A stretch of 64,000 nt of DNA from Arcticibacter tournemirensis (GTDB taxonomy: Bacteria > Bacteroidota > Bacteroidia > Sphingobacteriales > Sphingobacteriaceae). The DNA is taken from assembly GCF_006716645.1 (NCBI RefSeq), contig NZ_VFPL01000001.1, forward strand, positions 2,232,001-2,296,000. The letters run 5' to 3'. The notes beneath the pieces were generated by a model that was given only the letters and a program-made list of their open reading frames with translations, ran no database searches and was not told the DNA's origin. The position numbers and the translations under genes were made by a program. Below are positions 13,697 to 59,387 of this stretch, in pieces (position 1 is the first letter of the stretch; every line of letters starts with the position of its first letter).

Positions 13697-13773
13697 AAAA
13701 GAACATAAAGTTTAGTTCCGAAGGTTTCTATGGACCGGGTTTTTGTTAGCTTTTCGCTAAACACAAATCCTTG

Positions 13774-15324: not shown

Positions 15325-15348
15325 CCAGCTATAAAATTATAAAGAATA

Positions 15349-16095
15349 ATGAACAACGAAACACTAGAGAAGATGCGTCAGCTTCGCCTTTACGGCATGT
15401 ATGATGCTTTTAAAACAAATCTGGAGACTTCAGTGAAAGAATCCCTCACGGCCGATCAGTTTGTCTCCCTGCTGGTGGCCAGTGAATGGGACGACAGACG
15501 TAACCGCTTCATCGAAAGAACCATCAGGACAGCTAACTTCAGGTACAAAGCATCTTTGGAACAGGTAGATTACTCCTTTGACCGCGGACTGGATAAAAAC
15601 CAGGTGCACCGGCTGGCAGGACTGGACTTTATCAAAGAACACAAAGACCTGTTTATCACCGGTTCTACAGGAACCGGCAAGAGTTACCTGGCTACCGCTC
15701 TTGGGTATCATGCATGCCAGAACGGGTATAAAGTCATGTATGTAAATACAGCTAAGCTGATGGGCCAGTTAAAGCTGGCTAAGGCAAAAGGAACTATGCT
15801 GGCAGAACTCAAGCGGATAGAGCGTCTGGACATGCTCATCCTGGATGACTTTGGTCTGCAGCCCTTTGATCCTCAATCCAGACTTGCATTGCTTGATATC
15901 ATTGAGGACAGGCACCAAAAACGGTCCACGGTGATCACGTCGCAGATTCCGGTTAAGGATTGGTATGATATCATTGGTGAAAAGACAATCGCTGACGCGG
16001 TACTTGACCGTATCGTTCACCACTCTTTAAGAGTCGAATTGTTTGGAGAATCTCTAAGGAGAAAAAAATCCAAACCGGAAAATGTATTTTTGTAA
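15349..16095 (+). CDS. istB: IS21-family helper ATPase IstB (copy 1)
   Basis: This 248-residue AAA+ protein of the DnaC/IstB group has Walker A GSTGTGKS (about residues 104-111), Walker B LILDDFG and sensor motif VITSQIP. The N-terminal 60 residues are the helical IstB extension. IstB binds target DNA and stimulates IstA. Length is standard for the family, and both copies in the window encode the same protein. Confidence 0.93.
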   Translation: MNNETLEKMRQLRLYGMYDAFKTNLETSVKESLTADQFVSLLVASEWDDRRNRFIERTIRTANFRYKASLEQVDYSFDRGLDKNQVHRLAGLDFIKEHKDLFITGSTGTGKSYLATALGYHACQNGYKVMYVNTAKLMGQLKLAKAKGTMLAELKRIERLDMLILDDFGLQPFDPQSRLALLDIIEDRHQKRSTVITSQIPVKDWYDIIGEKTIADAVLDRIVHHSLRVELFGESLRRKKSKPENVFL

Positions 16096-16233
16096 AAATA
16101 ATAGTTGTTAAACCGGACTAAAAGCATCAGTTCAAAGTGCCAATCTGTACAACAACTTTTGTTCTTTTCAAACCTCAACTCTGAGGGGACAGTTTGCAGT
16201 GGCGAACGGGGGACACTTTAATTGGTATATCCA

Positions 16234-16665
16234 ATCTAAGCTCAATTTTATATCGTACTTGCCCCTGATAAAATATTTTTCATCAAGATAGGTATTGTTT
16301 GTTCTGTAATACTTGTAAAAGTCGAGGTTGTTATCAAAATACCTTTTCAGCTTTGCAAGTTCATTACCGATATATTTCTTTATGGCTTTGCCATTGCCAT
16401 AAGGCTTTTTAGTTTCTATTTTATAGATGGCATTGTGATAAATGAGCTTGGAAAGAAAAACTGGTTTTATATGTTTGAAGAAATAGATCTCTTCGTCAAC
16501 ATTTTTAAAACCATTTTCCATTACATAAGATTTTAGTTCAGCCATACAACCTAATAGGAGTTCTATTAATTGATGAGCTAAGCCAATCGGGTTCTCCGCT
16601 TCGGCTGTCAATTCTTCAATCTTATGTTCTAAGTTTTGTACGTAATTTTCATATTGTTTATCCAT
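16234..16665 (-). pseudogene. rteC: RteC-like protein, 3' end removed by IS21
   Basis: From the ATG at 16665 (MDKQYENYVQNLEHKIEEL) about 144 native residues can be read before the frame enters the IS end at 16233. It then stops inside the IS at 16168 after a foreign tail (LKCPPFATANCPLRVEV). The part FYKYYRTNNTYLDEKYFIRGKYD is characteristic of RteC, a regulator of excision and transfer in CTnDOT-type conjugative transposons; full-length proteins are nearly twice as long. It is a strong hint that the neighbouring cargo came from such an element. It lies 54 bases after the SoxB-like gene. Confidence 0.8.
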
Positions 16666-16719: not shown

Positions 16720-18138
16720 TCATTCTCCCGAAAAATTGGCATCCGAGCCAACGCTACTTTCGTTCAAGTAAGTAATTAGGGCTTGTACGGTAGTTACTTC
16801 TAAATCTATTCTGTTACTGCCGTATTTATCCGAAACACCTTGTTGGGTGATGTAGGCAACCTTATAGATGCTTTGCTTATTAAGATGTACGCCCTCGAAT
16901 AAGATTTCTTCTATTCGGTAACCACAGGGGTTTTCGATATGGAATTTAATTTGTAAGCCTATATGCCTTTTGCAATATCCGCCCATTTGCTGCATTGGAT
17001 TAGTTGCAAATGTTCGTTCAAAGTTCTCTTCCAGCATATCAATTATTTCTTGCCCCGTCATATCTACGGTGGTAATTACAGGGTTCATCGGAACCATATT
17101 GTACAAATCCCACACGGTGATATCCCCCTTGTCAATAGGCGCACCATATCGCCAGCCGTTTGAGAATGCAATAGCTACACCTGCCGCTTTATGGACAGCT
17201 TCTAATAATAAATCATCCATTGACGATGAAAACGTAGAATATCGGTGCAGAATGTTGTCTGTCTTTGCGACTACCTGCTTTTGCAGGCTTCTGTATGAAA
17301 CCATAATATCGTTTACCATCTGCTCCACAGATCTGTCGCTGGCAACTTGCTCATTGACTTCTATAAGCTCATATTCGTGGTGTGTGATTTTATTGTCTGA
17401 AACAGATAGCTTCAAATGTCCCACAAAAGAGCCGTGGCAACCGCATTGAATTACAATAGTATCATTCACTTTTACAGGTTCATACAGCCTGTTATGGGTA
17501 TGCGCACTAAGGCAAATATCAATCCCAACGGTGTGTTTCAGCAACTCAATATCCTGCGGAAAGCCGTTGTGTGAAAGAAGTATAATAAGGTCAGCACCCT
17601 GATTTTTCACTTCGTCCACGTAGCCGTTTATTTCCTGCATTGCATCGGTTACATATATTCCTTTGCTGAATTTATCGGGCATTGTTTTATCTATAATGTT
17701 GGCGCAAATACCTATCACGGCTACTTTGATATTGCCAGTTTCGATAAATGAATAGGGCTTTAGGAATAGTGTGCCGTCCTCGTTAAAAACATTAATCGCC
17801 AGTACAGGGTAATTGAGCTGTTCTGCCAGCGAGAGCAGATGATCGGGTGTGTAAGCGAAATCCCAATGTCCAACCATCCCACTAAGACCGAGCTGGTTTA
17901 GAATAGGTACAATTGCTTCGCCTTTTGAAGATACTACTGGCAGGGTTCCGTGAAAGGTGTCGCCACCATCGAAAAATAAAGCGTGTTCATTTTCGCTTTT
18001 TATCTTCTCAAAAATGGTTGCAATCCTTGCATATCCGCCCGCTGTTTTTATATATTCTCCGTCTTTGTTGTAAAACAGTTCGGGATGTGGTTCGAGATAG
18101 CCGTGTACATCGTTTATAAATCCTATTGATAATTCCAT
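16720..18138 (-). CDS. SoxB-like metallophosphatase/5'-nucleotidase-family protein, no signal peptide
   Basis: The 472-residue protein is built as the UshA/SoxB superfamily: an N-terminal dinuclear metallophosphoesterase (about 1-260) and a C-terminal nucleotidase-type domain (about 285-470). Metal-site motifs are NDVHG (Asp10, His12), DGGD (57-60), GHWDF (90-94), LSHNG (His190) and SAHTH (His213, His215). GHWDF replaces the GNH(D/E) of nucleotidases and resembles the GHWEF of SoxB thiosulfohydrolases, as does SNGWRYG (326-332). Unlike SoxB or UshA, the protein begins directly at the first motif with no export signal, so it is probably cytoplasmic. Substrate unknown. A DsrE-like gene precedes it. 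Confidence 0.8.
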   Translation of the reverse strand: MELSIGFINDVHGYLEPHPELFYNKDGEYIKTAGGYARIATIFEKIKSENEHALFFDGGDTFHGTLPVVSSKGEAIVPILNQLGLSGMVGHWDFAYTPDHLLSLAEQLNYPVLAINVFNEDGTLFLKPYSFIETGNIKVAVIGICANIIDKTMPDKFSKGIYVTDAMQEINGYVDEVKNQGADLIILLSHNGFPQDIELLKHTVGIDICLSAHTHNRLYEPVKVNDTIVIQCGCHGSFVGHLKLSVSDNKITHHEYELIEVNEQVASDRSVEQMVNDIMVSYRSLQKQVVAKTDNILHRYSTFSSSMDDLLLEAVHKAAGVAIAFSNGWRYGAPIDKGDITVWDLYNMVPMNPVITTVDMTGQEIIDMLEENFERTFATNPMQQMGGYCKRHIGLQIKFHIENPCGYRIEEILFEGVHLNKQSIYKVAYITQQGVSDKYGSNRIDLEVTTVQALITYLNESSVGSDANFSGE

Positions 18139-18171
18139 AATATTGAATTTTGGGTTTGAAACATTTTTTGA

Positions 18172-18627
18172 TTAAGGATGAACAATTGCCCAACCCTCAT
18201 ATTGCCTTAATATAATTTCTCCGTTACCGCTCGGAACATAATTCACGAAATCAAACAGTTCTTTTTTTTCAATTTTTCGTTCCTCCATCGTTTTTGAACA
18301 TTGAGCGAATACTACGCCCTTGTCTTTTAGCGCAATCAATAATTCCTGATAGCTGTTCGCTTTTTTATACATTTCCACCCCGTCAGAAAATGCAATGACT
18401 TCTATGTGTAGCTTGCCTTTCAGTCGTGGGTCAGTCAATACATTATTTATATTGCGAAGTATGCCCCTTACTTTTTTATCTTCTGCTTCGTTCAAGATGT
18501 ATAGAGCGTTGTAATGTTTTTTATATGCTTTTGCAGGCTCAAAAACTGCATCGGTTTTTTGCTGTGCAAAAATGCTGACAGATGTAAAACACAATACCAC
18601 TATAAACAAGGCTTGTAATCTTTTCAT
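18172..18627 (-). CDS. Exported DsrE/DsrF-like protein
   Basis: The start chosen is the ATG at 18627, which follows a strong ribosome-binding site (aaaggag). An upstream ATG at 18657 overlaps the preceding gene and has no such site. The product (151 residues) has a signal peptide (ALFIVVLCFTSVSIFAQ) and a DsrE-like fold with one conserved cysteine (GVVFAQCSKTM, Cys110). In DsrE/TusD-type proteins such a cysteine carries sulfane sulfur. Periplasmic single-domain DsrE proteins are known but poorly understood. Its place between thioredoxins and a SoxB-like enzyme suggests sulfur or thiol handling. Confidence 0.78.
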   Translation of the reverse strand: MKRLQALFIVVLCFTSVSIFAQQKTDAVFEPAKAYKKHYNALYILNEAEDKKVRGILRNINNVLTDPRLKGKLHIEVIAFSDGVEMYKKANSYQELLIALKDKGVVFAQCSKTMEERKIEKKELFDFVNYVPSGNGEIILRQYEGWAIVHP

Positions 18628-18649
18628 TTTAAAAACTCCTTTTGTTTCG

Positions 18650-19273
18650 TTATTCATTTATTAACTCTTCTATCTGCTTTACGAACTTGTCTGAGGCGTA
18701 ATTGGCAAATCCTGCGTGGTGCAATCTGACTTTTCCTTTTTTATCCAATACAACGGTAGTAGGCAATGAACCAGAGTAAATTTCTGCCGGAACATTACCA
18801 TTGGATTGATACATCGGGACTGAAAATTTCTCTTTTTCCAAATACGCCTTTCCTGCTGCGGGGTCATTGTCTTCGTTGATGGTCAGAAAGACCATATCAG
18901 GGTTGTTTTTGAATTGGGTATAAAGTGTTTCGATTGAGGGAAATTCAGCCCTGCAAGGCGGACACCACGATGCCCAAAAATTGATAAACACAACTTTACC
19001 TCTTAATGATGCGGTATTTTGTACATTGCCTTTTTCATCCGTAAAGTCAAAATCCGTGTTCGCCTGGCTCGCCGTAGCCGCATCCTTTTTATCCATACTT
19101 GCATTAAAAAGCCCTGTTGCCATTAGCTGCCGCAGCACGAATGATTTTGCATCGGGGCTGACAAACATTATTCCTACAAAAATGACCATTACAATGGTAA
19201 AGGCATTTTTCTTGATGTACTGCCATTTACTGGCAGGCGGTTTTTTTTTGGAAACCTCTTTATTGTTCAGCAT
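18650..19273 (-). CDS. TlpA-like thioredoxin, membrane-anchored
   Basis: The 207-residue protein has a cytoplasmic start, one membrane helix (about 24-40, FTIVMVIFVGIMFVSP) and a periplasmic thioredoxin fold of the TlpA/ResA kind. The redox motif is WCPPC (Cys104, Cys107), and the cis-Pro loop is SLPTTVV. TlpA proteins reduce disulfides in the periplasm using electrons from DsbD or CcdA. It is transcribed from the dsbD side, with 17 bases to the preceding TlpA gene, and its end overlaps the possible upstream start of the DsrE-like gene. Confidence 0.88.
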   Translation of the reverse strand: MLNNKEVSKKKPPASKWQYIKKNAFTIVMVIFVGIMFVSPDAKSFVLRQLMATGLFNASMDKKDAATASQANTDFDFTDEKGNVQNTASLRGKVVFINFWASWCPPCRAEFPSIETLYTQFKNNPDMVFLTINEDNDPAAGKAYLEKEKFSVPMYQSNGNVPAEIYSGSLPTTVVLDKKGKVRLHHAGFANYASDKFVKQIEELINE

Positions 19274-19290
19274 AATCCTATTTTTATCTG

Positions 19291-19869
19291 TTAGTTACTT
19301 TCTACCAATTCATTCAGGGCTTTGATAATTTCGGGGCTTGTATAATCCCTGCCGCCCTCCATACGGGCTATCATATCTCCGCTTTTATCGAGTATAACCG
19401 TAGTCGGGATAGCACTGCCTAAATAGTCTTGGGGTATATCTCCTGCCGGAACATAAACAGGCAAATCATATCCTTTATCTTTCATAAAGGCAGTGGACTT
19501 CTCTATCTTGTTATCCACGTCCACCATTAAAAACGCGATATCATCATTATCTTTAAAAGACTGTTTGAGTTTGTTTATAGAGGGCATTTCGTGGATGCAG
19601 GGCGGACACCACGTAGCCCAAAAGTTGATGAATACCACGTTGCCTTTTAAGGAACTTAACAATACCGTTTTACCGCTTTTGTCCTTAAAAGAAATATCCG
19701 AAGCTGCCGGAGCAGGGGCTTCCGTTGTTGCAACTTCTTCCGTCGGGGTATTTCCGCTTTCTACCTTGTTCTCTTTGTTCTTATCCGTATTTCCACAAGC
19801 TGCCAGCGAGATAGCTGTAATAATGAAAATCCCGGAACGAACTGCCAAATTTCTAAACTGCGTTTTCAT
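19291..19869 (-). CDS. TlpA-like thioredoxin lipoprotein
   Basis: A lipoprotein signal with lipobox LAAC (Cys25) is followed by a low-complexity Glu/Thr/Ala/Pro linker to about residue 57 and a TlpA thioredoxin domain. The redox motif is WCPPC (Cys88, Cys91), and the cis-Pro loop is AIPTTVI. The domain is strikingly similar to that of the protein at 22081-22647 (shared CIHEMPSIN, FLMVDVD, IEKS), so the two are recent paralogues flanking the split DsbD. It is tethered to a membrane facing the periplasm, presumably receiving electrons from DsbD encoded 28 bases upstream. Confidence 0.9.
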   Translation of the reverse strand: MKTQFRNLAVRSGIFIITAISLAACGNTDKNKENKVESGNTPTEEVATTEAPAPAASDISFKDKSGKTVLLSSLKGNVVFINFWATWCPPCIHEMPSINKLKQSFKDNDDIAFLMVDVDNKIEKSTAFMKDKGYDLPVYVPAGDIPQDYLGSAIPTTVILDKSGDMIARMEGGRDYTSPEIIKALNELVESN

Positions 19870-19897
19870 ATTCTGTGATTTTTTACTGTTTCTAATT

Positions 19898-21574
19898 CTA
19901 TTTTTTATTCTTGTATCGGTCTATCGCAGATTGCAAAAAGCTGTAATAGCTTTTCGGGTCATAATCTGCTCCGATAGGGTTTACCAAAATTTCTTCGTTG
20001 GCGGGGTTTAAAAGCACATAAAAGGGTTGCGAATTGGCGTTGTATTTACTCGCCTGAAAATCGCTCCATTTATTACCTATGGTGCGTATATTTTTACCAC
20101 TGAACGATGATACAAATTGCTCTGCCTCCGGTAAGGCGGTCTTGTCATCCACATAAAGCTGTATGATAACCAACTCTTCGTTCAATAGCCGGAGTACATC
20201 TTTGTCTGACCATACCGATGCTTCCATCTTACGGCAGTTCACGCAGGCGTGTCCTGTAAAATCGAGCATCACAGGCTTGCCTGCTTTTTTAGCATATTCC
20301 ATTCCCTCGTCGTAATCAAAAAATACGTTCAGGTTTAACGGAGCGTGGAATATATCGGAATATTTATGGGCTTTGCCATCCGTTGAATAGCTTGCTTGTG
20401 TTCTGCCTAATGACGAAGTATAAAGGTCAAAATCCTGTGTAGCCTGTGGGGGTAAAAATGCTGAAATGGATTTAAGGGGTGCGCCCCATAATCCCGGAAC
20501 CATATACAGGGTAAATGCAAGCACCACCATTGACAGCACCATTCTTGGCAGGCTTATATCTACCGCAGGACTATCGCCGGGAAAGCGTAGCTTGCCCAAT
20601 AAGTAAAAGCCCAAATACCCGAAAATAATAATCCATAGTGCTAAAAAGACCTCCCTGTCAAACCAATTCCAATGATAGGCAAGGTCAACGTTGCTTAAAA
20701 ATTTCAGTGCAAGAGCCAGTTCCAAAAAGCCGAGCGTAATCTTAACGCTGTTCAGCCAGCCTCCCGAAGACGGCAGGCTTTTTAAAAGGCTTGGGAACAT
20801 TGCAAAAAGTGTAAACGGTATTGCCAAAGCCAATGCAAAGCCGAGCATCCCGATGGCGGGACCTAAAAGTTCGCCCATTGTGGCAGCCTGTACCAGCAAG
20901 GTTCCGATAATCGGACCCGTACAGGAAAATGACACGACCGCTAATGTTGCCGCCATAAAGAAAAGCCCCAACAAACCGCCTCGGTCAGCCTTACGGTCTA
21001 ACTTGTTTGCAAGCGAAGCGGGCAAAGAAAGTTCAAACGCACCGAAAAATGAAAAGGCGAAAACCACCAAAAGAACGAAGAAAGCAAAATTAAAAATCCC
21101 GTTTGTGGAAAGGCTGTTAAGCGCATCCGCCCCGAAAATAACCGTTATCAAAATGCCTAATAACACGTAAATGAGTATGATGGATAAGCCATACATCATT
21201 GCTTGCATTACGGCTCTGCCTTTGGTATGCCCGCTTTTGGTAAAGAAACTTACCGTTAAGGGCAGCATCGGGAAAATACAGGGCATCAGCAATGCTGCAA
21301 AGCCGCCAATAAAACCCGCAATGAAAATTGCCCATAATGAACCTTTATTCGTTGCGGGTTCATTCTTTTGCAAGGTAGTCCCGTTTTCTTGTGTTAACGA
21401 AGTTTCCGGCTCTTTTGATGCTTCGATACTGTCCTGCTGAACAGGCTGCTGCTCCGTTATTTCCGTAAACTCCACATCATCATAGGATACAAGACTGTCC
21501 GTCTGCGCATTTGCAGTAACAGCCATCAAACCACTGATGAATAGTACAATTAATATTTTCGCTATTAATCTCAT
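19898..21574 (-). CDS. dsbD: DsbD-like thiol:disulfide interchange protein lacking the alpha domain
   Basis: The 558 residues comprise a signal peptide, an 80-residue Glu/Gln/Thr-rich linker, the eight-helix DsbD transmembrane domain (about 80-370; it contains LMPCIFPMLPLTVSFF and SCTGPIIGTLL with the two membrane cysteines), and a C-terminal thioredoxin domain with CVNC (GHACVNCRKME). It carries electrons from cytoplasmic thioredoxin to periplasmic acceptors. The N-terminal DsbD alpha domain is absent here and is encoded by the preceding gene (21585-22031). Three TlpA genes lie around it as likely clients. Confidence 0.9.
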   Translation of the reverse strand: MRLIAKILIVLFISGLMAVTANAQTDSLVSYDDVEFTEITEQQPVQQDSIEASKEPETSLTQENGTTLQKNEPATNKGSLWAIFIAGFIGGFAALLMPCIFPMLPLTVSFFTKSGHTKGRAVMQAMMYGLSIILIYVLLGILITVIFGADALNSLSTNGIFNFAFFVLLVVFAFSFFGAFELSLPASLANKLDRKADRGGLLGLFFMAATLAVVSFSCTGPIIGTLLVQAATMGELLGPAIGMLGFALALAIPFTLFAMFPSLLKSLPSSGGWLNSVKITLGFLELALALKFLSNVDLAYHWNWFDREVFLALWIIIFGYLGFYLLGKLRFPGDSPAVDISLPRMVLSMVVLAFTLYMVPGLWGAPLKSISAFLPPQATQDFDLYTSSLGRTQASYSTDGKAHKYSDIFHAPLNLNVFFDYDEGMEYAKKAGKPVMLDFTGHACVNCRKMEASVWSDKDVLRLLNEELVIIQLYVDDKTALPEAEQFVSSFSGKNIRTIGNKWSDFQASKYNANSQPFYVLLNPANEEILVNPIGADYDPKSYYSFLQSAIDRYKNKK

Positions 21575-21584
21575 ATTGTATCCT

Positions 21585-22031
21585 TTAATTTACAGGAATG
21601 CTGAACGCCACTTCTTCAGGCGGTAAGCATTGTTTGTCGTTACAAACCATATAGGTAAGCGTACCTTTTACCGTAGGCGAATTACCTGTTAGTTTTACCT
21701 TTTGCTGGAACACCACAGATTTTTTGTAGTAACCCACTTCCATATCAAAAGTCGGGTCGTGCTTTACAATAGGTTTAGCTGCCAATACCTTTCCGTTCAA
21801 TTGGTAGGCTTTCGACGCTTGGAACGAAAAACTTGTCGGCTGCGGACCGTTTTTAGGAACCGTCTGCGAATAGATATGCCAGCCGTCTTCTATGGTTGCC
21901 TTTAAAAGCAGTACAGCTTCTTTATCGTTGATGCGTTTTGAAGCATAAGACCATTTTACAGGCTTTAGTATTTGTCCGAATGATGCGGCACTTATGAATA
22001 AGAATGCGACAAAAAATATTATCCTTTTCAT
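21585..22031 (-). CDS. Stand-alone DsbD N-terminal (alpha) domain protein
   Basis: The 148-residue exported protein (signal peptide IIFFVAFLFISAASFGQ) matches the immunoglobulin-like alpha domain of DsbD. The active pair lies in the late motif MVCNDKQCLPP, where DsbD has the two cysteines that pass electrons to clients. It is separated from the DsbD core gene by only 10 bases. In E. coli these parts are one protein; splitting is common in Bacteroidota. The alpha domain would shuttle electrons between the DsbD thioredoxin domain and the TlpA clients. Confidence 0.88.
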   Translation of the reverse strand: MKRIIFFVAFLFISAASFGQILKPVKWSYASKRINDKEAVLLLKATIEDGWHIYSQTVPKNGPQPTSFSFQASKAYQLNGKVLAAKPIVKHDPTFDMEVGYYKKSVVFQQKVKLTGNSPTVKGTLTYMVCNDKQCLPPEEVAFSIPVN

Positions 22032-22080
22032 TGTTTTTATCTTTTAATTGTTACTGAATATTTTTCTTATTTATTACCAA

Positions 22081-22647
22081 CTATTTTTCGTTTAAAAGTT
22101 TCGTCATCAGGTCAATGACTTCTTTAGACGAATAGTCTGCGCCGCCCACCTGCCTGCCGATGATGTTGTTTTGCTTATCTACAATAATGGTGGTCGGGAT
22201 AGAACCTGTAAATAGTTCACGGGGTATGTCGCCGTCGGGAACGTGTACTGGGAGGTCAAATTTTTTGTTTTTCATCCACTCTTTTGACTTTTCTATTTTC
22301 CCGTCCACATCGACCATCAGGAATACCAGATCCTTGTTATCCTTAAAGGTCTTCCGCAGGTCGTTAATAGAGGGCATTTCGTGAATACACGGCGGACACC
22401 ACGTTGCCCAAAGATTGATAAAGACAACCTTGCCCTTTAAGGAGTGTAACGAAATGGTTTTTCCGTTTTCGTCCTTGAACTTTAAATCAGGCGTTGGTTG
22501 CGCATTTGACACTAATGGCTTTTCGCCATTAGTGTTTTGATTTTTATTCATACTTCCATCAATACCATTGTTATTGATTGCTGCGTATGCCCATCCCGTA
22601 ATCGCTATTAGCGGGAGCAGGGCTATTTTTTTTATGTTCAACTTCAT
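22081..22647 (-). CDS. TlpA-like thioredoxin, exported
   Basis: The 188-residue protein has an N-terminal export signal or anchor (IALLPLIAITGWAYA), an Asn-rich linker (25-50) and a TlpA domain. The redox motif is WCPPC (Cys84, Cys87), and the cis-Pro loop is SIPTTII. It is a close paralogue of 19291-19869, but has no lipobox cysteine, so it may be soluble in the periplasm. It begins 5 bases after the adaptor gene stop, which ties the efflux genes and the redox genes into one transcript. Confidence 0.9.
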   Translation of the reverse strand: MKLNIKKIALLPLIAITGWAYAAINNNGIDGSMNKNQNTNGEKPLVSNAQPTPDLKFKDENGKTISLHSLKGKVVFINLWATWCPPCIHEMPSINDLRKTFKDNKDLVFLMVDVDGKIEKSKEWMKNKKFDLPVHVPDGDIPRELFTGSIPTTIIVDKQNNIIGRQVGGADYSSKEVIDLMTKLLNEK

Positions 22648-22652
22648 AATCC

Positions 22653-23765
22653 CTATTTTTTAATTCTGCCCTCTTTGATTTCTTCCGAAGGCTTTACAAT
22701 AATTTTATCCTGTTGAGAAAGATTACCGAACACTTCGGTCAGCGTATCCAAACGAACGCCCTCACTTACAGCTATACGTTTTACCTCATTGTCGTTTAAG
22801 GTCAGTACATACGTTCCCGACTGTGTGTTCAACACGCTTTTGCTCTGAACCCAATAAGTAGGATTTTTGCGCTGTAATTTTAGCTTTACCTGTGCATAGT
22901 CGCCACCCTGTAATTCGCCGGACGGATTGCTCACATCAAACTCCAATGTAAGGGAACGGTCTTGCTGGTCGAGCAAGCCCGATGTACGGGAAAGAACGGC
23001 ATTGAATGTTTTGCCGGGCTGTGAGCTGATTGTAAATGTAGCAGGCATACCCTGCTTTACAGATGAAGCGTGTTTTTCAGGCAATGATAAGGTTAATCTT
23101 AGCTTATTGCTTTGAGCCATCATAAATAAGGGCGTATTGCTTCCAGTTCCTGCCAATGCACCAACCGAAACATTCCTGTCGGTAATCACACCGTCAAACG
23201 GTGCTGTAATGCGGAGATACTGCTGCAATTGCGAAGAATGCGCCGTACCTGCTTTAGAAGCATCATAAGCTGATTTGGCACTTTGCATTGCGCTTTTTGC
23301 CCTGTCCAGCTCAATATCTGCTACCGCTCCCGTTGTTTTGGAAGCGGTTACCAATCTGTCATAAGCCTGTTTTGCGTATAGGTAATCACTATATACCTTT
23401 TGCTCCGTGGACTTATCAGAAAGATATTGCTGGTTCATTTCGGGAGCTTCCAGCACCGCCAAAAGCTGACCTCTACGCACACGATCCCCTCTGTCTACGT
23501 ACATTCGTTTTACAAAACCTGTAACCTTTGCATAAACGGCTACCTGCTCATACGGTTTCAATTCTGCGGGTACAGATATTTCGTATTCGGGATTGATGAA
23601 CTGCACAGGTTTGGCAGGATAGTTAACAGCCTTTACTTCCTGCTTTTTTTGCCCCTGTCCTTTTTCTTCCGTTTTATTTGAACAGGAAGCGAAAACCATT
23701 GTCAGCACTGCCGCCATTGCCAGTCCTATACCTGATTTTTTATTTATTGAAATGCTTTGATACAT
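22653..23765 (-). CDS. RND efflux periplasmic adaptor (MFP) lipoprotein
   Basis: The chosen start (ATG 23765, MYQSISINKK) leaves a 20-base gap after the permease. Starting further upstream would overlap that gene and bury the lipoprotein signal, whose lipobox is FASC (Cys28). The ~370 residues show the adaptor order: lipoyl half-motif (VYAKVTGFVKRMYVDRGDRV), helical hairpin (about 100-165), second lipoyl half (ITAPFDGVITDRNVSVG) and beta-barrel/membrane-proximal parts. It connects the RND pump to TolC. It belongs to the AcrA/MexA-like group; no metal-binding extension is visible. Confidence 0.9.
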   Translation of the reverse strand: MYQSISINKKSGIGLAMAAVLTMVFASCSNKTEEKGQGQKKQEVKAVNYPAKPVQFINPEYEISVPAELKPYEQVAVYAKVTGFVKRMYVDRGDRVRRGQLLAVLEAPEMNQQYLSDKSTEQKVYSDYLYAKQAYDRLVTASKTTGAVADIELDRAKSAMQSAKSAYDASKAGTAHSSQLQQYLRITAPFDGVITDRNVSVGALAGTGSNTPLFMMAQSNKLRLTLSLPEKHASSVKQGMPATFTISSQPGKTFNAVLSRTSGLLDQQDRSLTLEFDVSNPSGELQGGDYAQVKLKLQRKNPTYWVQSKSVLNTQSGTYVLTLNDNEVKRIAVSEGVRLDTLTEVFGNLSQQDKIIVKPSEEIKEGRIKK

Positions 23766-23785
23766 TGTATTTAATATTTTAAGAG

Positions 23786-26700
23786 TTATGATATAGTTTG
23801 TTGTGCCGATGGCTCCTTGTAATATCTGCTTTCGCAATCATCAGGGTCTAATGACGGGCTAATCACTTTAGTTCTCGACAGCAGGGAAGAGAAGAAATGC
23901 GGAACCAACAAAAGGATAGTTACCGTAGAAGCGATAAGCCCCCCGATAACGGCTCTGCCCAATGGTGCTACCTGCTCGGCTCCATCGCCTAAGCCCATTG
24001 CCATTGGCAACATACCCGCCAACATAGCTGCGGCAGTCATTATTACAGGTCTTAACCTGGATGAAGCGGCAAGCCTTGCAGCATTCTTCGGTTTTAATCC
24101 TAATTTCTTGCGGTAGAACTCTGCCTGATTAACCAATAATACCGCATTGGACACCGATACACCGAGCGACATAATGATACCCATATACGATTGCAGGTTA
24201 AGTGTACTTCCGGTAATGAAAAGGATAATCAGACTTCCGGCAATTACGGCAGGTAAAACAGAAAGTATAATCAACGGTACTTTGAACGATTGGTAATAAG
24301 CCGAAAGCATCAGGAATATGGCAATAATGGCTACGCCCAAACCAGCTAACAGGCTTCCTAATGTATCATCCAATAATTGTAATGTTCCCTCCGTCCAAAC
24401 GTTTGTACCACGTGGCGGTTCCCCGGCATCTTTAATGGCTTGCTTAACCGCTTTGGAAGCTGTACCCAAATCTTTACCATATACATTGGCAACTACGGTA
24501 ACGTAGCGGTTCGGTCCCTTACGGTTTACCTGTGCAGGCGATGTAACTTTGCGTATGGTCGCCACATCTTCCAACACAGGGCGAAGGCTTCCTTTTTTGA
24601 GCGGAAGCGACCGCAGCTTTTCTTCGGATTGCATAATTGCTTCAGGTATCTGCACTTGTGTTTGGAATACCAATCCCGATTTCGGGTCTATCCACAGGTT
24701 CTTATCGGTATATCTTGTTGAAGAAGTAGCGGCAACAAGGCTTCGGGTAACATCCTGCATTGTAAGCCCGAACTGCCCCGCAAGGTCACGGTTTACATCT
24801 ATTTCCAATGTAGGATAAGCGATAGCTTCGGCAATGCGGACATCACGCAGGTAAGGCACTTTTTTAAGATTGGCTTCAATCTTTGATGCGTGCGCAAATG
24901 CTCCTTTTATCTGATTGGCTCCTACTTTTACTTCGATAGGTGTCATTGCACCCTGTCCCATAATCTTTTCGGTAAGCTCCATCGGCTCAAAATTGAAAGC
25001 GACATCCGGATGCTTTTCGGCAATCTTTTTCCGTATGTTTTCTTTCAGTTCTTCCATAGAACCCTCATACACATCCTGATTGACCGATACCTGCAATACT
25101 GCTTCGTGTGAAGCACTTGTAAATAGGAATATCGGGTTGATAGGCGTTCCTGCGGCGTGTGTTCCTACAAATGCGGAAGTTAGTTTGATGCCGTTTTCAG
25201 GGATTATCTCACGAATATCATCAGTAACATCTCTTACAAGCTGCTCTGTTTTTTCGAGCCTGCTTCCCTGCGGGGCTTGCAGTCGTAGCTGAAAATCGCC
25301 GTTATTGGAAACAGGCATTACGTCTGTACCCACTACGTTAAGCAATAAAGCAGTAACCAATCCTGCAACCAAAACATATCCTATAAAAAGCGGGGTTGCC
25401 TTTGTTGACCATTTACGCATCCGGTAGGAATAGTTGACACGGAACTTGTCAAAGAATGCCCGTTTTCTTGGTGTGTTGGCTTCATCATTATGCTTGTTCT
25501 TCATCATCCAGTTTGCCAAAATCGGCACAAACGTTTGCGAAGCCAAAAAGGAAGCGACCATTGCAAATGCCACTGCCATAGACAAAGGCATAAACATATC
25601 TTTCGGAATACCTGTCATAATAAAGGCAGGTGTAAGTACCGCAAGGATACAGAGCAATATCAGTAATTTAGGAATAGAGATTTCGAGCAAGGCATCTACG
25701 ATTGCCCGCTGTTTGGATTTGCCCATTTCCATATGCTGGTGTATGTTCTCTATCGTTACCGTGGCTTCATCGACCAGGATACCGATGGAAAGGGCAAGCC
25801 CGCTCAATGTCATAATATTAATGGTTTGCCCGAAAAGATGCAGTGCTGTAACGGCTGATAGGATAGCAATCGGGATAGTCAGTACCACAATAATCGCTCC
25901 CCGAGTATCGCCTAAAAACAGCAATATCACTAAGCCTGTGAAAACTGCTCCCAATATGCCCTCGTGTATCAGGTTGGAAAGCGAACGTTCGATGTAGGTC
26001 GATTGGTCAAATTCGTAACGGACATCAACATCTTCAGGCAACTGGCTTTTGAGCATCGGTATAGAAGCCTTTAAGTTCTTTACGGCATCTAAAGTGGAGG
26101 CATCTGCTTTTTTGATGATAGGCAGGTAAACCGACCTTTTGCCATTAACCACCGCATAACCTACGGTCTGATCTGCACCGTCCAACACGCTTGCCACATC
26201 ACGCACATAAATAGTTCGGTTATCACTTGTTTTTACAGGCGTGTTCAAAAATTCTTCGGGATTTTTGGCAATGGAGTTAATCGGAGCCATCAAATTTTCA
26301 TCGCCTATGCGGATATTTCCGGCAGGCGAAGGAAGACTGTTTTTAGTAATGGCGGCTGTTATTTCTTCGGGGCTTAGCCCGCTCGCCTGCATTGCTTCGG
26401 GATTGATGTTTACAATTATCGAACGGATATTACCCCCAAACGGTGCTGGAGAAGTGATACCGAGAATTTCGGTAAACATCGGTCTGATTTTCGTAATGGC
26501 GAGTGTCTGCAATTCGTTTACCGAACGCTGCTCACTTTCAAATACCAATTGTCCAACAGGGAGTGAGCTACCATCAAACCGTACTACCATTGGCGGTACG
26601 GCTCCGGGCGGCAGGAAGCCCATTGCCCGGTTGGTAAAGGTAGAAACCTCTCCGGCTGCCTGTGCCATATCCGTTCCGGGATAAAATGTTAGCTTCATCA

Positions 26701-26974
26701 GTGTTAATCCCTGTACGCTTTTGAAGTCGATGTTCTTTACACCGCTTACAAACAGGAGTACCTTTTGGAATTCATTTGCCATAAACCCGTCCATATAGGC
26801 TGGCGACAAACCACCATAAGGCATAGCAATATATATCGCAGGCAATTCCACTTCGGGGAATATATCTACGTTTATTTTTTTTACTGTGTTATAGGAAAAG
26901 AAAGCTATCGTAAGCACTGCTACCATAATAGCAATCGGTTTCCTTAACGCAAATCTTATCAGGTTCATAAGCAA
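23786..26974 (-). CDS. RND-family efflux permease
   Basis: The 1062-residue inner-membrane pump has twelve helices and two large periplasmic loops, the full length for AcrB-type proteins. The start LIRFALRKPIAIMVAVLTI and GGLSPAYMD are typical. Helix 4 reads LSIGILVDEATVTIENI in place of the usual GLxVDDAIVxxEN, a variant also unlike the heavy-metal CzcA pattern. It is driven by the proton gradient; substrate not known. It is flanked by tolC and adaptor genes in the same transcript. Its unusual company of thiol-redox genes is discussed under findings. Confidence 0.92.
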   Translation of the reverse strand: MLMNLIRFALRKPIAIMVAVLTIAFFSYNTVKKINVDIFPEVELPAIYIAMPYGGLSPAYMDGFMANEFQKVLLFVSGVKNIDFKSVQGLTLMKLTFYPGTDMAQAAGEVSTFTNRAMGFLPPGAVPPMVVRFDGSSLPVGQLVFESEQRSVNELQTLAITKIRPMFTEILGITSPAPFGGNIRSIIVNINPEAMQASGLSPEEITAAITKNSLPSPAGNIRIGDENLMAPINSIAKNPEEFLNTPVKTSDNRTIYVRDVASVLDGADQTVGYAVVNGKRSVYLPIIKKADASTLDAVKNLKASIPMLKSQLPEDVDVRYEFDQSTYIERSLSNLIHEGILGAVFTGLVILLFLGDTRGAIIVVLTIPIAILSAVTALHLFGQTINIMTLSGLALSIGILVDEATVTIENIHQHMEMGKSKQRAIVDALLEISIPKLLILLCILAVLTPAFIMTGIPKDMFMPLSMAVAFAMVASFLASQTFVPILANWMMKNKHNDEANTPRKRAFFDKFRVNYSYRMRKWSTKATPLFIGYVLVAGLVTALLLNVVGTDVMPVSNNGDFQLRLQAPQGSRLEKTEQLVRDVTDDIREIIPENGIKLTSAFVGTHAAGTPINPIFLFTSASHEAVLQVSVNQDVYEGSMEELKENIRKKIAEKHPDVAFNFEPMELTEKIMGQGAMTPIEVKVGANQIKGAFAHASKIEANLKKVPYLRDVRIAEAIAYPTLEIDVNRDLAGQFGLTMQDVTRSLVAATSSTRYTDKNLWIDPKSGLVFQTQVQIPEAIMQSEEKLRSLPLKKGSLRPVLEDVATIRKVTSPAQVNRKGPNRYVTVVANVYGKDLGTASKAVKQAIKDAGEPPRGTNVWTEGTLQLLDDTLGSLLAGLGVAIIAIFLMLSAYYQSFKVPLIILSVLPAVIAGSLIILFITGSTLNLQSYMGIIMSLGVSVSNAVLLVNQAEFYRKKLGLKPKNAARLAASSRLRPVIMTAAAMLAGMLPMAMGLGDGAEQVAPLGRAVIGGLIASTVTILLLVPHFFSSLLSRTKVISPSLDPDDCESRYYKEPSAQQTIS

Positions 26975-26977
26975 TAA

Positions 26978-28363
26978 TTAAAGATTGTTAAACAAGAAAT
27001 CGAAGTTGGCGGTCAGTTCCGCCTCGTAAGCAAGGAGCATCCAATAATCACGGGAAGCCTCTATGTGGGCATTCTCTGCCTGTTCCAGCAAAATGCGTAT
27101 CTGTAATAATTCGCTTAAAGTGATCAGACCGCTTTTGTACCTTGCCAGATACATATTGTAAGCGTCCTGCGATTGCTGTACAGCAAGTTTCGTTTTCCTG
27201 AGTTGTTCGTACTGCTGAATGATTTTTGCCTGCGAAGCAGATAGATCTGCCTGCATTGCCTGTTCGTATTGTGAATGCAGCAATTTGGTACTTTCCGCTT
27301 CTTTGAACAATTGTTCCCCTTTCATACGGTTGGTATGCAGGCTCGTCAAATTCCACGTAATACCAATGCCCGCCAAAAAGTTATTGGTCGTATTGCTGAA
27401 CCCGTTTATCCACGCTCCCGATACTGTTCCGTTAGGGTTGATACCTGTACCCCGATAAGCGTAACCGCCTAACAGGTTAATGGATGGCAAGGATGACCTT
27501 TTCTGTGCTTCGCCGCTTAACGTATAATAGGCTGATTGTTTATCCAAAGCATCTAAAATTGGATGCGATGGGCTTATACTATTTACTCTATTGAAATTAT
27601 TTTCTGCGGGATTACCGAAGCGGCTGGCAGATGCAGTATAATTAACGCTGTCATTACCGTACAATTCCAGCAATTTGATAAGGGAAGCATTTTTAAATCC
27701 ATTCCATTTATCATTTTCGCCCAATGCCTGTACATAGGATGAGGAAGCAAGCAGGCTGTCTGCTGCCGGTCTTAAACCCGAAGCGGATAAGCTCGAAGTT
27801 ATTTTGCGAATATCATCCAAACGTCCTGCGTTATTCGCTGTCCAGTCCAGCTTGGCATTGTTGTACAAAAGTGTAATGTATCTTTCGGATAGTATCTTTT
27901 TAAGGTTGAGTATGTAAGCATCTTTATCACTTACCGATTTATCATATAAAGCACCCGCAGCCTCGTTCTGCTTGCGCAACTTTCCGAAAGAAAATACTTC
28001 CCATTGAACAATGGCGGAGCCAAAAGTATTGGCAGCCGTAGAACTACCGTCCAGTGGTACTGCCGAACCGCTAACATTGAAAAAGCCTGCCTGCGGAAAA
28101 AACGCTCCTGCGCTTCCCTCATACGTTCCGTAGGTATTCTGTGCCTGTGCGTTTACCTGTGGGAGCATATTGCCCTTAACCGCCCGTTGGTTGAACTTTG
28201 CGGCATCTATCGCCGATGTTTTTACCCCAACGCCGGGATAGGTTTCTTCGACTTTAGACCACAAGCTGCCTAAAGTATATTCCTGTTGTTGCTGTGCATA
28301 TAGTGGAAGCGCAGCAACAATGGCTAACCATAATAATGTGGTTGCCATAATATGTTTTATCAT
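26978..28363 (-). CDS. TolC-family outer-membrane efflux channel
   Basis: The chosen start is the ATG at 28363 (MIKHIMATTLLWLAIVAALPLYAQ gives a clean signal peptide); a TTG four codons earlier is possible. About 461 residues form the duplicated coiled-coil/beta layout of TolC, with long helical stretches (SQAKIIQQYEQLRKTKLAVQQSQDAYN; YKSGLITLSELLQIRILLEQAENAHIEASRDYW). It completes the tripartite pump with the RND permease, whose gene begins 4 bases after its stop. It is the first of the tightly spaced genes. Confidence 0.88.
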   Translation of the reverse strand: MIKHIMATTLLWLAIVAALPLYAQQQQEYTLGSLWSKVEETYPGVGVKTSAIDAAKFNQRAVKGNMLPQVNAQAQNTYGTYEGSAGAFFPQAGFFNVSGSAVPLDGSSTAANTFGSAIVQWEVFSFGKLRKQNEAAGALYDKSVSDKDAYILNLKKILSERYITLLYNNAKLDWTANNAGRLDDIRKITSSLSASGLRPAADSLLASSSYVQALGENDKWNGFKNASLIKLLELYGNDSVNYTASASRFGNPAENNFNRVNSISPSHPILDALDKQSAYYTLSGEAQKRSSLPSINLLGGYAYRGTGINPNGTVSGAWINGFSNTTNNFLAGIGITWNLTSLHTNRMKGEQLFKEAESTKLLHSQYEQAMQADLSASQAKIIQQYEQLRKTKLAVQQSQDAYNMYLARYKSGLITLSELLQIRILLEQAENAHIEASRDYWMLLAYEAELTANFDFLFNNL

Positions 28364-28383
28364 ATTATGATACAATTTTGGAG

Positions 28384-28401
28384 AGGTCGCTTATACGACC
28401 T
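28384..28401. promoter_or_regulatory. Perfect 6-bp inverted repeat before tolC, possible operator
   Basis: AGGTCG-CTTATA-CGACCT lies 21-38 bases upstream of the tolC ATG. It has the size of a binding site for a dimeric repressor and can also fold as a hairpin in the leader. No regulator gene is present in the IS-bounded segment, so any repressor would act from elsewhere. Confidence 0.35.
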
Positions 28402-28409
28402 AAGATTAT

Positions 28410-28461
28410 TTTAAAATGAAAACAATAGAAAGCCTATTGAAACTGCATCACAGTCAATAGG
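28410..28461 (-). terminator. Hairpin after the small lipoprotein gene
   Basis: On the minus strand the stem cctattga/tcaatagg (28454-28461 with 28433-28440, 13-base loop) is followed by a T-rich stretch. It could end or attenuate transcription between the 28471-28890 gene and tolC. Confidence 0.45.
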
Positions 28462-28470
28462 AAAAAAGAA

Positions 28471-28890
28471 TTAGCGGGCAAAGTGGATGATGAGCTTCCG
28501 GTATTCCAAAAAGATAGGAATAGAACTACGGATTTTGTTGCTACCGCTATAAAGTGGATGCTTGTTTTCTTTATTTAACGGACGGAAGCCGATAAGGAAA
28601 AGAAGCGAAGCCGTAAAAAGAAGAACGGGTAATAAATCGTTCGCCTTAAAATTAAAGTTTTGGACAATCTGGTTGTCGGCAGTTTCAATCTTGCTACATT
28701 TTTCCAGCGAGCTTGCCGGAAAACTATGATTGGTCTTAGGAACGCCGCTTTCTGTTTGTGTGGGCAGACCTGCAAAAATTTTAATGCTGCTTTTGATTGG
28801 GCAGGATGTAAGCAATACCAACAAGAACGTGGCGAATACAAAGAAGTATCGCCTGTAAGTTGCTGAAATATGTGGTACAGTCCTGTTCAT
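28471..28890 (-). CDS. Small hypothetical lipoprotein/membrane protein
   Basis: The product (about 139 residues) begins with a hydrophobic signal (FFVFATFLLVLLTSC, possible lipobox Cys). It has a polar middle (KSSIKIFAGLPTQTESG) and a second hydrophobic segment (LLPVLLFTASLLFLIGF) before a basic tail. No family is recognised. The ATG at 28890 is used; the recorded frame can also start at TTG 28893. The predicted promoter would start transcription almost at the ATG, so the mRNA may be leaderless. It is oriented with the efflux operon, separated by a hairpin. Confidence 0.55.
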   Translation of the reverse strand: MNRTVPHISATYRRYFFVFATFLLVLLTSCPIKSSIKIFAGLPTQTESGVPKTNHSFPASSLEKCSKIETADNQIVQNFNFKANDLLPVLLFTASLLFLIGFRPLNKENKHPLYSGSNKIRSSIPIFLEYRKLIIHFAR

Positions 28891-28897
28891 CAATTTA

Positions 28898-28928
28898 CAA
28901 AAATACTTTTAATTCTTTAAGCATACAA
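28898..28928 (-). promoter_or_regulatory. Bacteroidota-type promoter for the cargo genes
   Basis: On the minus strand TTG (28926-28928), a 20-base spacer and TATTTTTG (28898-28905) fit the -33/-7 consensus. It lies between IS copy 2 and the small lipoprotein gene and could drive the whole leftward cargo. Confidence 0.5.
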
Positions 28929-29013
28929 GAAGAAATGGGTATTTTAGTGTTTTTTAACACGAAAAGATGTGAAGTCTGGTATGTTTTACCGATATTGGAT
29001 AAAACACACCAAA

Positions 29014-29119
29014 CTGACCCCTTTTGGCCAATTGAAAATGCCCCCCTCTGCCAGAGCAAAGTGATCCCCTTCGGCCAAAGTAAACTGTCCCCCTTTGGCC
29101 AAATCAAAGTGATCCCCTG
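29014..29119. repeat. Subterminal repeats of IS21 left end (copy 2)
   Basis: Same five-unit array as in copy 1, probable IstA binding sites. Confidence 0.65.
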
Positions 29120-29196
29120 AAAAGAACATAAAGTTTAGTTCCGAAGGTTTCTATGGACCGGGTTTTTGTTAGCTTTTCGCTAAACACAAATCCTTG

Positions 29197-30747
29197 ATGC
29201 CAATGTCCAATAAACCAATTCAAATGAATAAACTTAGGCAGATTATCCGTCTTTATTGCCAGGGAACCGGCACCAAGACCATTAATGGGATGGTCGGCAG
29301 TTCCCGTACTACCGTAAAAAAGTATGTTCGCGTGTGGCATCAGCTTGGTATTACCCACGAAGAATTCAGTGCCAAGAGCGATAGTGAACTGTCGGTACTT
29401 TTCATGACTTCGGCAGCCAAGACTGTAAACAGTCCCCGGCGGCAGGAACTTGAGTTACTGCTTCCTGAGTATTGTAAAAGACTAAAAAAGAAGGGTGTAA
29501 CCCGTGAGCTATTGCATGTGGAATACTTAGCGAAACATCCTGGAGGTTACGGACGATCCCGTTTTAACAATGCTATCCATACTTATCTTCAGCTTTCCAA
29601 ACCTGTGATGCATATTGATCACAAAGCAGGTGATAAGATGTATATCGACTTTGCCGGGAGCAAACTTCAATTTCATCCTGCTGATGGTCCTGAACGTGAT
29701 GCAGAGGTGTTTGTAGCCATATTGGGCTGCAGCCAGCTTACATACGTGGAAGCTGTGGAAAGCCAGCGCAAGGAAGATCTGATCAGGGCCTGCGAGAATG
29801 CCCTGCACTATTTCGAGGGTGTGCCCCGGGCGATCGTTCCAGATAATCTGCGTTCAGCGGTAACCAAAGGGAGCAAGTATGAGGCAGTGCTCAATGATGA
29901 GTTCGCAGCTTTTGCGGAGCATTATTCGGTAACTGTAGTTCCTGCAAGAGCTTATAAGCCGCGCGACAAGTCTTTGGTGGAAGGGGCTGTTAAACTGATC
30001 TACCGGAGTATTTACCAGCGACTGGAGGGCCGCAGGTTCAGTGACCTGGAATCGCTGAACGCTGCCATACGTCCGGCGCTGGAGATTCATAACAACAAAC
30101 CTTTTTCTGGTCGCAGCTATTCGAGGCGTGAACAGTTTGAAGAGATTGAACGGGAAGCCCTTGGCACACTTAACCCAATACGGTACGAAGTGCACAAACA
30201 AGTCATGGCAACAGTGATGAAGAACGGTTATGTGCGCTTAGGCGAAGATATTCACTATTACAGCGTGCCCTACACTTATATTGGTAAGAAGGTAAAAGTA
30301 CTTTATACCTCTGCTATAGTCCGGATCTATTTCCATTACACGCAGGTTGCTGCCCATAAGCGCAACCGGATCAAGTACCATTATACTACTGACAAAGAGC
30401 ATCTGGCCTCACAGCACCGCTTTTTAACCGAATGGACACCCGAAAAGTTTATACAGGAAGCGGAACAGATCCATGAAGATGTAGCACGATATATCGCCCA
30501 GGTACTGGAGCACAAAGCCTATCCTGAGCAGGCTTATAAATCATGTTCCGGTATCCTGAGCTTTGCCAGACGGGTAGGCTCCGACCGCCTTGCCGGCGCC
30601 TGCCGCTGGGCCGACAACATTGGACAGTACAACTATCCGGTCATAGAGGAGATCCTCCGTAAACGCCTGGACCAGCTTACCCCTGAAGATGAACCGGCCA
30701 CTATTCCTCTACACAACAACATCCGGGGTAAAGAATATTATCAGTAA
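29197..30747 (+). CDS. istA: IS21-family transposase IstA (copy 2)
   Basis: The protein is identical to the product of 13774-15324: N-terminal helix-turn-helix, rve core with Asp-Asp-Glu in YIDFAG, VPDNLR and LVEGAVK, and C-terminal beta domain. It is intact, so this copy could also transpose. Start as for copy 1 (ATG after a TTG). Confidence 0.93.
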   Translation: MPMSNKPIQMNKLRQIIRLYCQGTGTKTINGMVGSSRTTVKKYVRVWHQLGITHEEFSAKSDSELSVLFMTSAAKTVNSPRRQELELLLPEYCKRLKKKGVTRELLHVEYLAKHPGGYGRSRFNNAIHTYLQLSKPVMHIDHKAGDKMYIDFAGSKLQFHPADGPERDAEVFVAILGCSQLTYVEAVESQRKEDLIRACENALHYFEGVPRAIVPDNLRSAVTKGSKYEAVLNDEFAAFAEHYSVTVVPARAYKPRDKSLVEGAVKLIYRSIYQRLEGRRFSDLESLNAAIRPALEIHNNKPFSGRSYSRREQFEEIEREALGTLNPIRYEVHKQVMATVMKNGYVRLGEDIHYYSVPYTYIGKKVKVLYTSAIVRIYFHYTQVAAHKRNRIKYHYTTDKEHLASQHRFLTEWTPEKFIQEAEQIHEDVARYIAQVLEHKAYPEQAYKSCSGILSFARRVGSDRLAGACRWADNIGQYNYPVIEEILRKRLDQLTPEDEPATIPLHNNIRGKEYYQ

Positions 30748-30771
30748 CCAGCTATAAAATTATAAAGAATA

Positions 30772-31518
30772 ATGAACAACGAAACACTAGAGAAGATGCG
30801 TCAGCTTCGCCTTTACGGCATGTATGATGCTTTTAAAACAAATCTGGAGACTTCAGTGAAAGAATCCCTCACGGCCGATCAGTTTGTCTCCCTGCTGGTG
30901 GCCAGTGAATGGGACGACAGACGTAACCGCTTCATCGAAAGAACCATCAGGACAGCTAACTTCAGGTACAAAGCATCTTTGGAACAGGTAGATTACTCCT
31001 TTGACCGCGGACTGGATAAAAACCAGGTGCACCGGCTGGCAGGACTGGACTTTATCAAAGAACACAAAGACCTGTTTATCACCGGTTCTACAGGAACCGG
31101 CAAGAGTTACCTGGCTACCGCTCTTGGGTATCATGCATGCCAGAACGGGTATAAAGTCATGTATGTAAATACAGCTAAGCTGATGGGCCAGTTAAAGCTG
31201 GCTAAGGCAAAAGGAACTATGCTGGCAGAACTCAAGCGGATAGAGCGTCTGGACATGCTCATCCTGGATGACTTTGGTCTGCAGCCCTTTGATCCTCAAT
31301 CCAGACTTGCATTGCTTGATATCATTGAGGACAGGCACCAAAAACGGTCCACGGTGATCACGTCGCAGATTCCGGTTAAGGATTGGTATGATATCATTGG
31401 TGAAAAGACAATCGCTGACGCGGTACTTGACCGTATCGTTCACCACTCTTTAAGAGTCGAATTGTTTGGAGAATCTCTAAGGAGAAAAAAATCCAAACCG
31501 GAAAATGTATTTTTGTAA
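30772..31518 (+). CDS. istB: IS21-family helper ATPase IstB (copy 2)
   Basis: The protein is identical to the product of 15349-16095, with Walker A GSTGTGKS and Walker B LILDDFG intact. It follows istA after 24 bases. Confidence 0.93.
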   Translation: MNNETLEKMRQLRLYGMYDAFKTNLETSVKESLTADQFVSLLVASEWDDRRNRFIERTIRTANFRYKASLEQVDYSFDRGLDKNQVHRLAGLDFIKEHKDLFITGSTGTGKSYLATALGYHACQNGYKVMYVNTAKLMGQLKLAKAKGTMLAELKRIERLDMLILDDFGLQPFDPQSRLALLDIIEDRHQKRSTVITSQIPVKDWYDIIGEKTIADAVLDRIVHHSLRVELFGESLRRKKSKPENVFL

Positions 31519-31656
31519 AAATAATAGTTGTTAAACCGGACTAAAAGCATCAGTTCAAAGTGCCAATCTGTACAACAACTTTTGTTCTTTTCAAACCTCA
31601 ACTCTGAGGGGACAGTTTGCAGTGGCGAACGGGGGACACTTTAATTGGTATATCCA

Positions 31657-59371: not shown

Positions 59372-59387
59372 TTGGAGGAATTACTTT

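Follow-up and report, generated by a model that had tools for sequence, protein, structure and literature searches.

An RND pump, TlpA/DsbD redox proteins and a SoxB-like protein in one gene block of Arcticibacter tournemirensis: a candidate part of a mobile island against reactive sulfur species

Results

This analysis concerns a block of ten genes in a stretch of 64,000 nucleotides from the genome of Arcticibacter tournemirensis (contig NZ_VFPL01000001.1, positions 2,232,001 to 2,296,000), called the window below; coordinates are those of the window unless a genome position is named. The block encodes an RND efflux pump, a set of thiol-redox proteins, a DsrE-family protein and a SoxB-like protein (SoxBL). 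A first-pass annotation, made from the sequence alone, had described the ten genes as packed leftward with gaps of 3 to 49 bases, which the coordinates of the open reading frames (ORFs) confirm: ten intact frames run leftward on the minus strand from 28375 to 16720, with Pfam and NCBIfam names that agree. An eleventh gene of the unit, ORFup (28471-28893, minus strand), encodes a 140-amino-acid protein, and the gene order reads ORFup-TolC-RND-MFP-TlpA-DsbD-TlpA-TlpA-DsrE-SoxBL. Taking in-frame ATG starts, the gaps measure 3 (tolC to the permease gene), about 20, 5, 49, 10, 28, 17, about 22 and 33 bases.

The pump consists of a TolC-family outer membrane channel (26978-28375; NCBIfam matches to TolC/NodT families), an RND permease of a distinct subfamily (23786-26974; PF00873, 1.6e-187) and a periplasmic adaptor (22653-23837; TIGR01730, 6.8e-55), whose likely ATG start lies near 23765. 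It is adjoined by the first of three TlpA/ResA-type thiol reductases, a secreted protein (22081-22647); the second has a lipoprotein signal (LAAC; 19291-19869) and the third is membrane-anchored (18650-19273). All three were named by Pfam and NCBIfam and contain WCPPC. Between the first and the second, DsbD is encoded in two neighbouring genes, one for the N-terminal periplasmic domain (21585-22031; PF11412, 9.6e-16) and one for the transmembrane domain with a C-terminal thioredoxin domain (19898-21574; PF02683, 1.7e-25, and PF13899), with redox cysteines in CNDKQC, LMPC, FSC and CVNC. Such a split is ordinary in this family, and the chromosome carries a second split copy (58% identity), so that we do not regard it as a novelty. 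The DsrE-family protein (18172-18657; PF02635, 1.7e-8) is secreted and, in an alignment of 10 homologues, has one invariant cysteine (FAQCSKTM). SoxBL (16720-18138) ends the block.

ORFup is a small membrane- or lipoprotein-like protein with two invariant cysteines in an alignment of nine loci, and its gene lies directly upstream of tolC in relatives. It had no match to a Pfam family, and a relative of it had none to an NCBIfam family. The window retains a candidate promoter of the Bacteroidota type, CTTG-N20-TATTTTTG, 5' of ORFup (28898-28929, minus strand); it was found by pattern match, and the pattern is not rare by chance (2 in the window for 1.1 expected). TATTTTTG is kept in Niabella, and similar boxes are present in other relatives.

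The first-pass annotation had called the operon mobile, and its surroundings bear this out. Two identical copies of an IS21-family insertion sequence (IS), both on the plus strand, bracket the block. Copy 1 spans 13573-16233 (istA 13771-15324, istB 15349-16095) and copy 2 spans 28996-31656, its right end lying within the first codons of the ORF at 31617-32273. The element is 2661 bp long, with ends TGGATA...TATCCA, as set by comparing the flanking pair with three further copies, the genome holding five in all. At the end of the block lies a fragment of rteC, a regulator of conjugative transposons, cut by copy 1 (16168-16665, minus strand; PF09357, 5.5e-31, profile positions 1-98 of 219). It matches its relatives over residues 1-158 only, their full length being 274 to 276 amino acids. 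In five out of five relatives (Paenimyroides, Halpernia, two Flavobacterium and Niabella), the block ends in the rteC of a CTnDOT-like conjugative element. MobC-like and relaxase-like genes are also present in relatives, and the window retains the truncated rteC only: it holds a fragment of a larger island, trimmed by the IS21 copies. A strict composite transposon is another matter. The block is bracketed by identical IS copies, but no matching target duplication was found across either pair of flanks, and movement in that form is not shown.

A second pair of the same element, 13.3 kb apart (genome position G000:C1:3790989-3806970, L146), brackets what appears by eye to be a copper-resistance-like set, with a multicopper-oxidase-like gene and heavy-metal-binding proteins. 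A further copy (G000:C1:1529332-1531992, L147) is found some 5 kb away from a MobC-like gene and may mark a second mobile element.

A scan of GTDB genomes found SoxBL at 77 to 79% identity in Paenimyroides aquimaris, Halpernia humi, Flavobacterium hibernum, F. hydrocarbonoxydans and metagenome-derived genome fragments; the figure is 81% for Niabella defluvii and 54% for Zeaxanthinibacter. The full ten-gene order is kept in Paenimyroides, Halpernia and the two Flavobacterium species, with proteins 75 to 96% identical. In Niabella, apparent frameshifts leave several genes in pieces, and three genes went undetected, those for TlpA1 and the two DsbD parts. Halpernia and F. hydrocarbonoxydans share 99.96% identity across 12 kb, and F. 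hibernum reaches 97% across 18 kb; identities of this order indicate a recent transfer between genera.

Directly upstream of the block, in the conjugative-element relatives and in one further genome (G052), lies a reactive-sulfur island of varying completeness. It comprises MobC-like and relaxase-like genes, a Crp/Fnr regulator, TauE, an SQR-like flavoprotein (best NCBIfam match type III SQR, 244 bits, below the cut-off of 525), a peroxiredoxin, a thiopurine-methyltransferase-like protein and one or two MBL+rhodanese proteins of the persulfide-dioxygenase type, one of which has a signal-peptide-like N-terminus. Two YeeE/YedE halves with similarity to TsuA (PmpAB/TsuA-like) follow, then ORFup and the block. 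Cytochrome bd is part of the island in F. hibernum and F. hydrocarbonoxydans.

The proposal of a single system had been tied to whether the efflux and redox genes occur together elsewhere, and the same genes do stand together in other Bacteroidota. Five other Sphingobacteriaceae have SoxBL (55 to 58% identity), the RND pump (66 to 68%), TolC, the adaptor, TlpA and DsrE within 20 kb, in other gene orders and mostly with a persulfide dioxygenase and YeeE halves. Two genomes of other families (G389 and G562) show further arrangements of the linked genes. SoxBL was also found at 43 to 48% identity on plasmids of Bradyrhizobium, Bosea, Sphingobium, Hymenobacter and Pontibacter, in most cases near ArsR, YeeE, TauE, dioxygenase, rhodanese, TlpA or DsbD genes; one Hymenobacter plasmid copy (L008) has none of these as neighbours. 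On two Bacillota plasmids, the nearest relatives (36 to 41%, with a GNWD motif) lie among TusA, TauE, dioxygenase-like, CcdA and TlpA genes. All plasmid relatives are below 60% identity, and none was found among viral contigs.

SoxBL indeed reads GHWDF where nucleotidases read GNHEF, as had been pointed out, yet this is no peculiarity of the protein, being the SoxB form of the site (FHWEF or SHWEW in annotated soxB products, SHWEW in PDB 2wdc). The SoxB active-site motifs DxH, GGDT, HW[ED], LSHNG and HTH are all present and align with annotated SoxB; the alignment with 2wdc covers all of them except the N-terminal DxH stretch. Two segments of the C-terminal domain, S[NP]xxR[YW]G and [DN]PxxQxGG, are common to SoxBL and SoxB and absent from the nucleotidases of the set. 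In a tree of 42 rows, SoxBL and its relatives form a clade of their own (support 100/100). Another split, supported 100/98, sets the nucleotidases apart from SoxB, the SoxBL clade and two more W-type groups. The idea of one system was to fail if SoxBL fell among ordinary 5'-nucleotidases; it falls on the SoxB side of the tree, and on motifs and tree we reject an ordinary 5'-nucleotidase or UshA. The score against TIGR04486 is 302.5 bits, below the equivalog cut-off of 550, and nucleotidase models reach at most 140.

SoxBL has 8 residues ahead of the NDxH strand and no signal peptide, and the same holds across the clade; SoxBL is thus predicted to be cytoplasmic. SoxY was absent from 15 genomes (14 with the block or parts of it, including that of the window, and G016, which has the pump island), in a search that did recover it from the two records in which soxY is annotated. 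Because it has no signal peptide and no SoxY partner, SoxBL falls outside the Sox system as defined, though its site is SoxB-like, and membership of a full Sox system is rejected. A Foldseek search with a structural model of SoxBL showed no clear preference among structures of YunD, a putative nucleotidase and SoxB, and was not used for function.

The RND permease stays below the cut-offs of the metal and the multidrug models alike: it scores 379 bits against TIGR00914 (CusA/CzcA; cut-off 701), and 543 and 399 bits against the NCBIfam multidrug (HAE) models (cut-off 1250). The nearest solved structures are MdtB, ZneA and CusA. Strong permease matches in 201 Sphingobacteriaceae genomes fall into two groups, separated by an identity gap between 63% and 52%. 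The neighbourhoods compared were those of 30 loci of the first group (at least 63% identity), including the window, and of 18 loci of the second. ORFup is near the pump in 26 of the 30 first-group loci. TlpA lies beside it in 25 of 30, against none of 18 in the second group (p 5e-9), and one or more sulfur markers (dioxygenase, YeeE, SQR, SoxB family, DsrE, TauE or TsdA) are near it in 17 of 30, against none of 18 (p 3e-5; Fisher tests, with related genomes counted as independent). The 18 loci of the second group have neither ORFup nor TlpA nor any sulfur marker near the pump. The tie of the pump to sulfur is strong, but not exclusive.

Three other observations concern genes outside the block. 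A further SoxB-related group (L005, L017-L025, L071, L080), in which GNWEV replaces GNHE, forms its own clade of longer proteins, mostly with signal-like N-termini and often near DsrE or TlpA genes. Far from the window, the chromosome has a persulfide-dioxygenase-like gene (G000:C1:4233051-4235004, L139; 61% identity to the gene of G012), overlapped by a TlpA-like ORF. Within the window, 56138-62745 holds by eye a SusC/SusD-like pair and, after it, genes for an ECF-sigma-like and a FecR-like protein, an ordinary set for Bacteroidota.

Discussion

The question arises as to what such a block does. We consider it probable that CTnDOT-like conjugative elements carry a mobile island that acts against reactive sulfur species, and that the block supplies its export and redox end; the species meant would be sulfide, persulfides or polysulfides, thiosulfate and S-sulfonates. 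Its likeliest role is in the envelope and cytoplasmic steps of their detoxification. Protection against sulfur species had already been suggested for the block, and the SQR-like, persulfide dioxygenase, YeeE/YedE and TauE genes of the wider island fit that suggestion.

From what is known of these families, the following scheme may be drawn. DsbD would pass cytoplasmic electrons to the three TlpA proteins. These would keep the cysteine of the periplasmic DsrE-type sulfur carrier reduced, and cleave persulfide and disulfide bonds, much as SoxV and SoxW serve SoxYZ. Where sulfane-sulfur compounds or thiol adducts build up in the envelope, the RND-TolC pump would expel them. S-sulfonates may arise when the sulfite made by persulfide dioxygenase meets persulfides, and where small thiols or carriers bear such groups (R-S-SO3-), the SoxB-type enzyme of the cytoplasm would hydrolyse them to yield sulfate and a free thiol. 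Each substrate, as well as the direction of electron and sulfur flow, is our conjecture. A more specific version, in which a dedicated RND-TolC subfamily with ORFup and TlpA/DsbD exports sulfane sulfur and a SoxYZ-independent cytoplasmic SoxB clade hydrolyses S-sulfonates, the whole being a transmissible sulfur-stress resistance system, is put forward tentatively, as a possibility.

Several points weigh against a role in sulfur detoxification. The N-terminus is the sole basis for placing SoxBL in the cytoplasm, its AlphaFold model (six sequences) is weak, with a mean pLDDT of 61, and we know of no activity ascribed to any member of its clade. Three Bacteroidota genomes (L075, L077, L078) have SoxBL without the pump. 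The counts and Fisher tests of the survey treat related genomes as independent, and 13 of the 30 pump loci, mostly ordinary chromosomal ones, have no sulfur marker besides TlpA within about 10 kb. The pump may therefore have a broader or another substrate.

This last point leads to a view of the pump as a general drug or metal exporter that, with its TlpA partner, merely came to travel with sulfur islands, the redox genes serving envelope protein quality under any thiol stress, such as metals or hypochlorite. One chromosomal pump locus (L178) lies by eye beside a CzcB-like adaptor and a histidine-rich metal-ATPase-like gene, the other IS21 pair brackets copper-type genes, and the permease does score with the CusA/CzcA model. 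However, that score is far under the metal-pump cut-off, and the linkage to sulfur genes recurs across arrangements and taxa, so that we find this view unlikely. Metals, silver and hypochlorite, which had been named as possible stresses, are less supported as targets, since the islands read contain no recognisable genes dedicated to them.

Alternatively, the genes may oxidise thiosulfate and tetrathionate for energy, as in Erythrobacter flavus, with SoxBL freeing sulfate from tetrathionate and zero-valent sulfur being exported or oxidised. The genetics of E. flavus (PMC7608252) speak for such a pathway, and a SoxB-like protein, a TsdA-like cytochrome and an MBL dioxygenase occur together in four relatives (L003, L005, L071, L111). 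Nevertheless, the stretches read in the window and its four intact ten-gene relatives contain no TsdA-type cytochrome; moreover, TsdA is periplasmic whereas SoxBL has no signal peptide. We give this scenario a low probability. Finally, insertion sequences and conjugative elements may have brought unrelated genes together by chance, the block then having no joint function. The IS21 brackets and the occurrence of member genes apart might point to this, but it is very improbable, given a gene order kept at 78 to 83% DNA identity across several genera and the re-linking of the same genes in different orders elsewhere.

If detoxification is indeed the role, conjugative elements and plasmids in environmental Bacteroidota carry tolerance of sulfide and persulfides packaged with an efflux pump; the block suggests that resistance to toxic sulfur moves as a package with its own pump. 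Proteins of the SoxBL clade, annotated as 'bifunctional metallophosphatase/5'-nucleotidase', would gain a testable SoxB-type function, and RND export of sulfane sulfur would become a testable question.

Comparison with known systems

We found no description in the literature of a pump, redox proteins and a SoxB-like protein in combination. The earlier statement that no pathway with such a set had been described is nonetheless too strong, since the TsdA-SoxB-sulfur dioxygenase pathway of E. flavus and the sulfide-detoxification operons are described relatives. In E. flavus 21-3, zero-valent sulfur is formed from thiosulfate through the action of TsdA and one SoxB-domain protein, two further SoxB-like genes of the cluster being dispensable (PMC7608252). 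The likeness lies in SoxB-domain proteins annotated as metallophosphatase/5'-nucleotidase, without a full Sox system and beside an MBL-rhodanese dioxygenase (SdoA/B), and in the TsdA-like cytochrome of some relatives of the window. In contrast, the sections consulted of that paper mention neither an RND pump nor a TlpA/DsbD set nor a conjugative carrier, and the block of the window has neither a tsdA nor a dioxygenase gene.

With the SoxB of the Sox system (PDB 2wdc, 4uwq; TIGR04486), SoxBL shares the HW[ED][FW], GGDT, LSHNG, HTH and DP/NPxxQxGG motifs and its side of the tree, but it forms a separate clade, has no Tat signal, scores 302 bits rather than 550, and is encoded in a genome without SoxY. 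The supply of SoxYZ by SoxV/SoxW and SoxS, in which SoxV reduces SoxW (from a title cited in PMC10451225), is similar in that a DsbD/CcdA-type transporter feeds periplasmic thioredoxin-like proteins beside a SoxB-type gene. The block differs by its full split DsbD and three TlpA proteins, and its candidate client is DsrE, not SoxYZ.

The sulfide-detoxification operons (cst, bigR, sqr-pdo, PmpAB) have in common with the wider island the SQR-like protein, persulfide dioxygenase, rhodanese, TauE, YeeE halves (PmpA and PmpB being proposed to work jointly, like full-length YeeE proteins) and ArsR or Crp regulators, to which the block adds the pump, TlpA/DsbD/DsrE and the putatively cytoplasmic SoxB-type enzyme. 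MexAB-OprM differs from the block in that it is a multidrug pump, whose operon has no dedicated redox genes. It is nevertheless another RND pump tied to sulfane sulfur, which activates MexR-regulated resistance, to judge from a title cited in PMC9774590. Set against these systems, the block belongs to a real, mobile and recurrent system, a variant of the known sulfide and thiosulfate detoxification islands in which the pump is unusual and the SoxB-type clade is predicted to be cytoplasmic.

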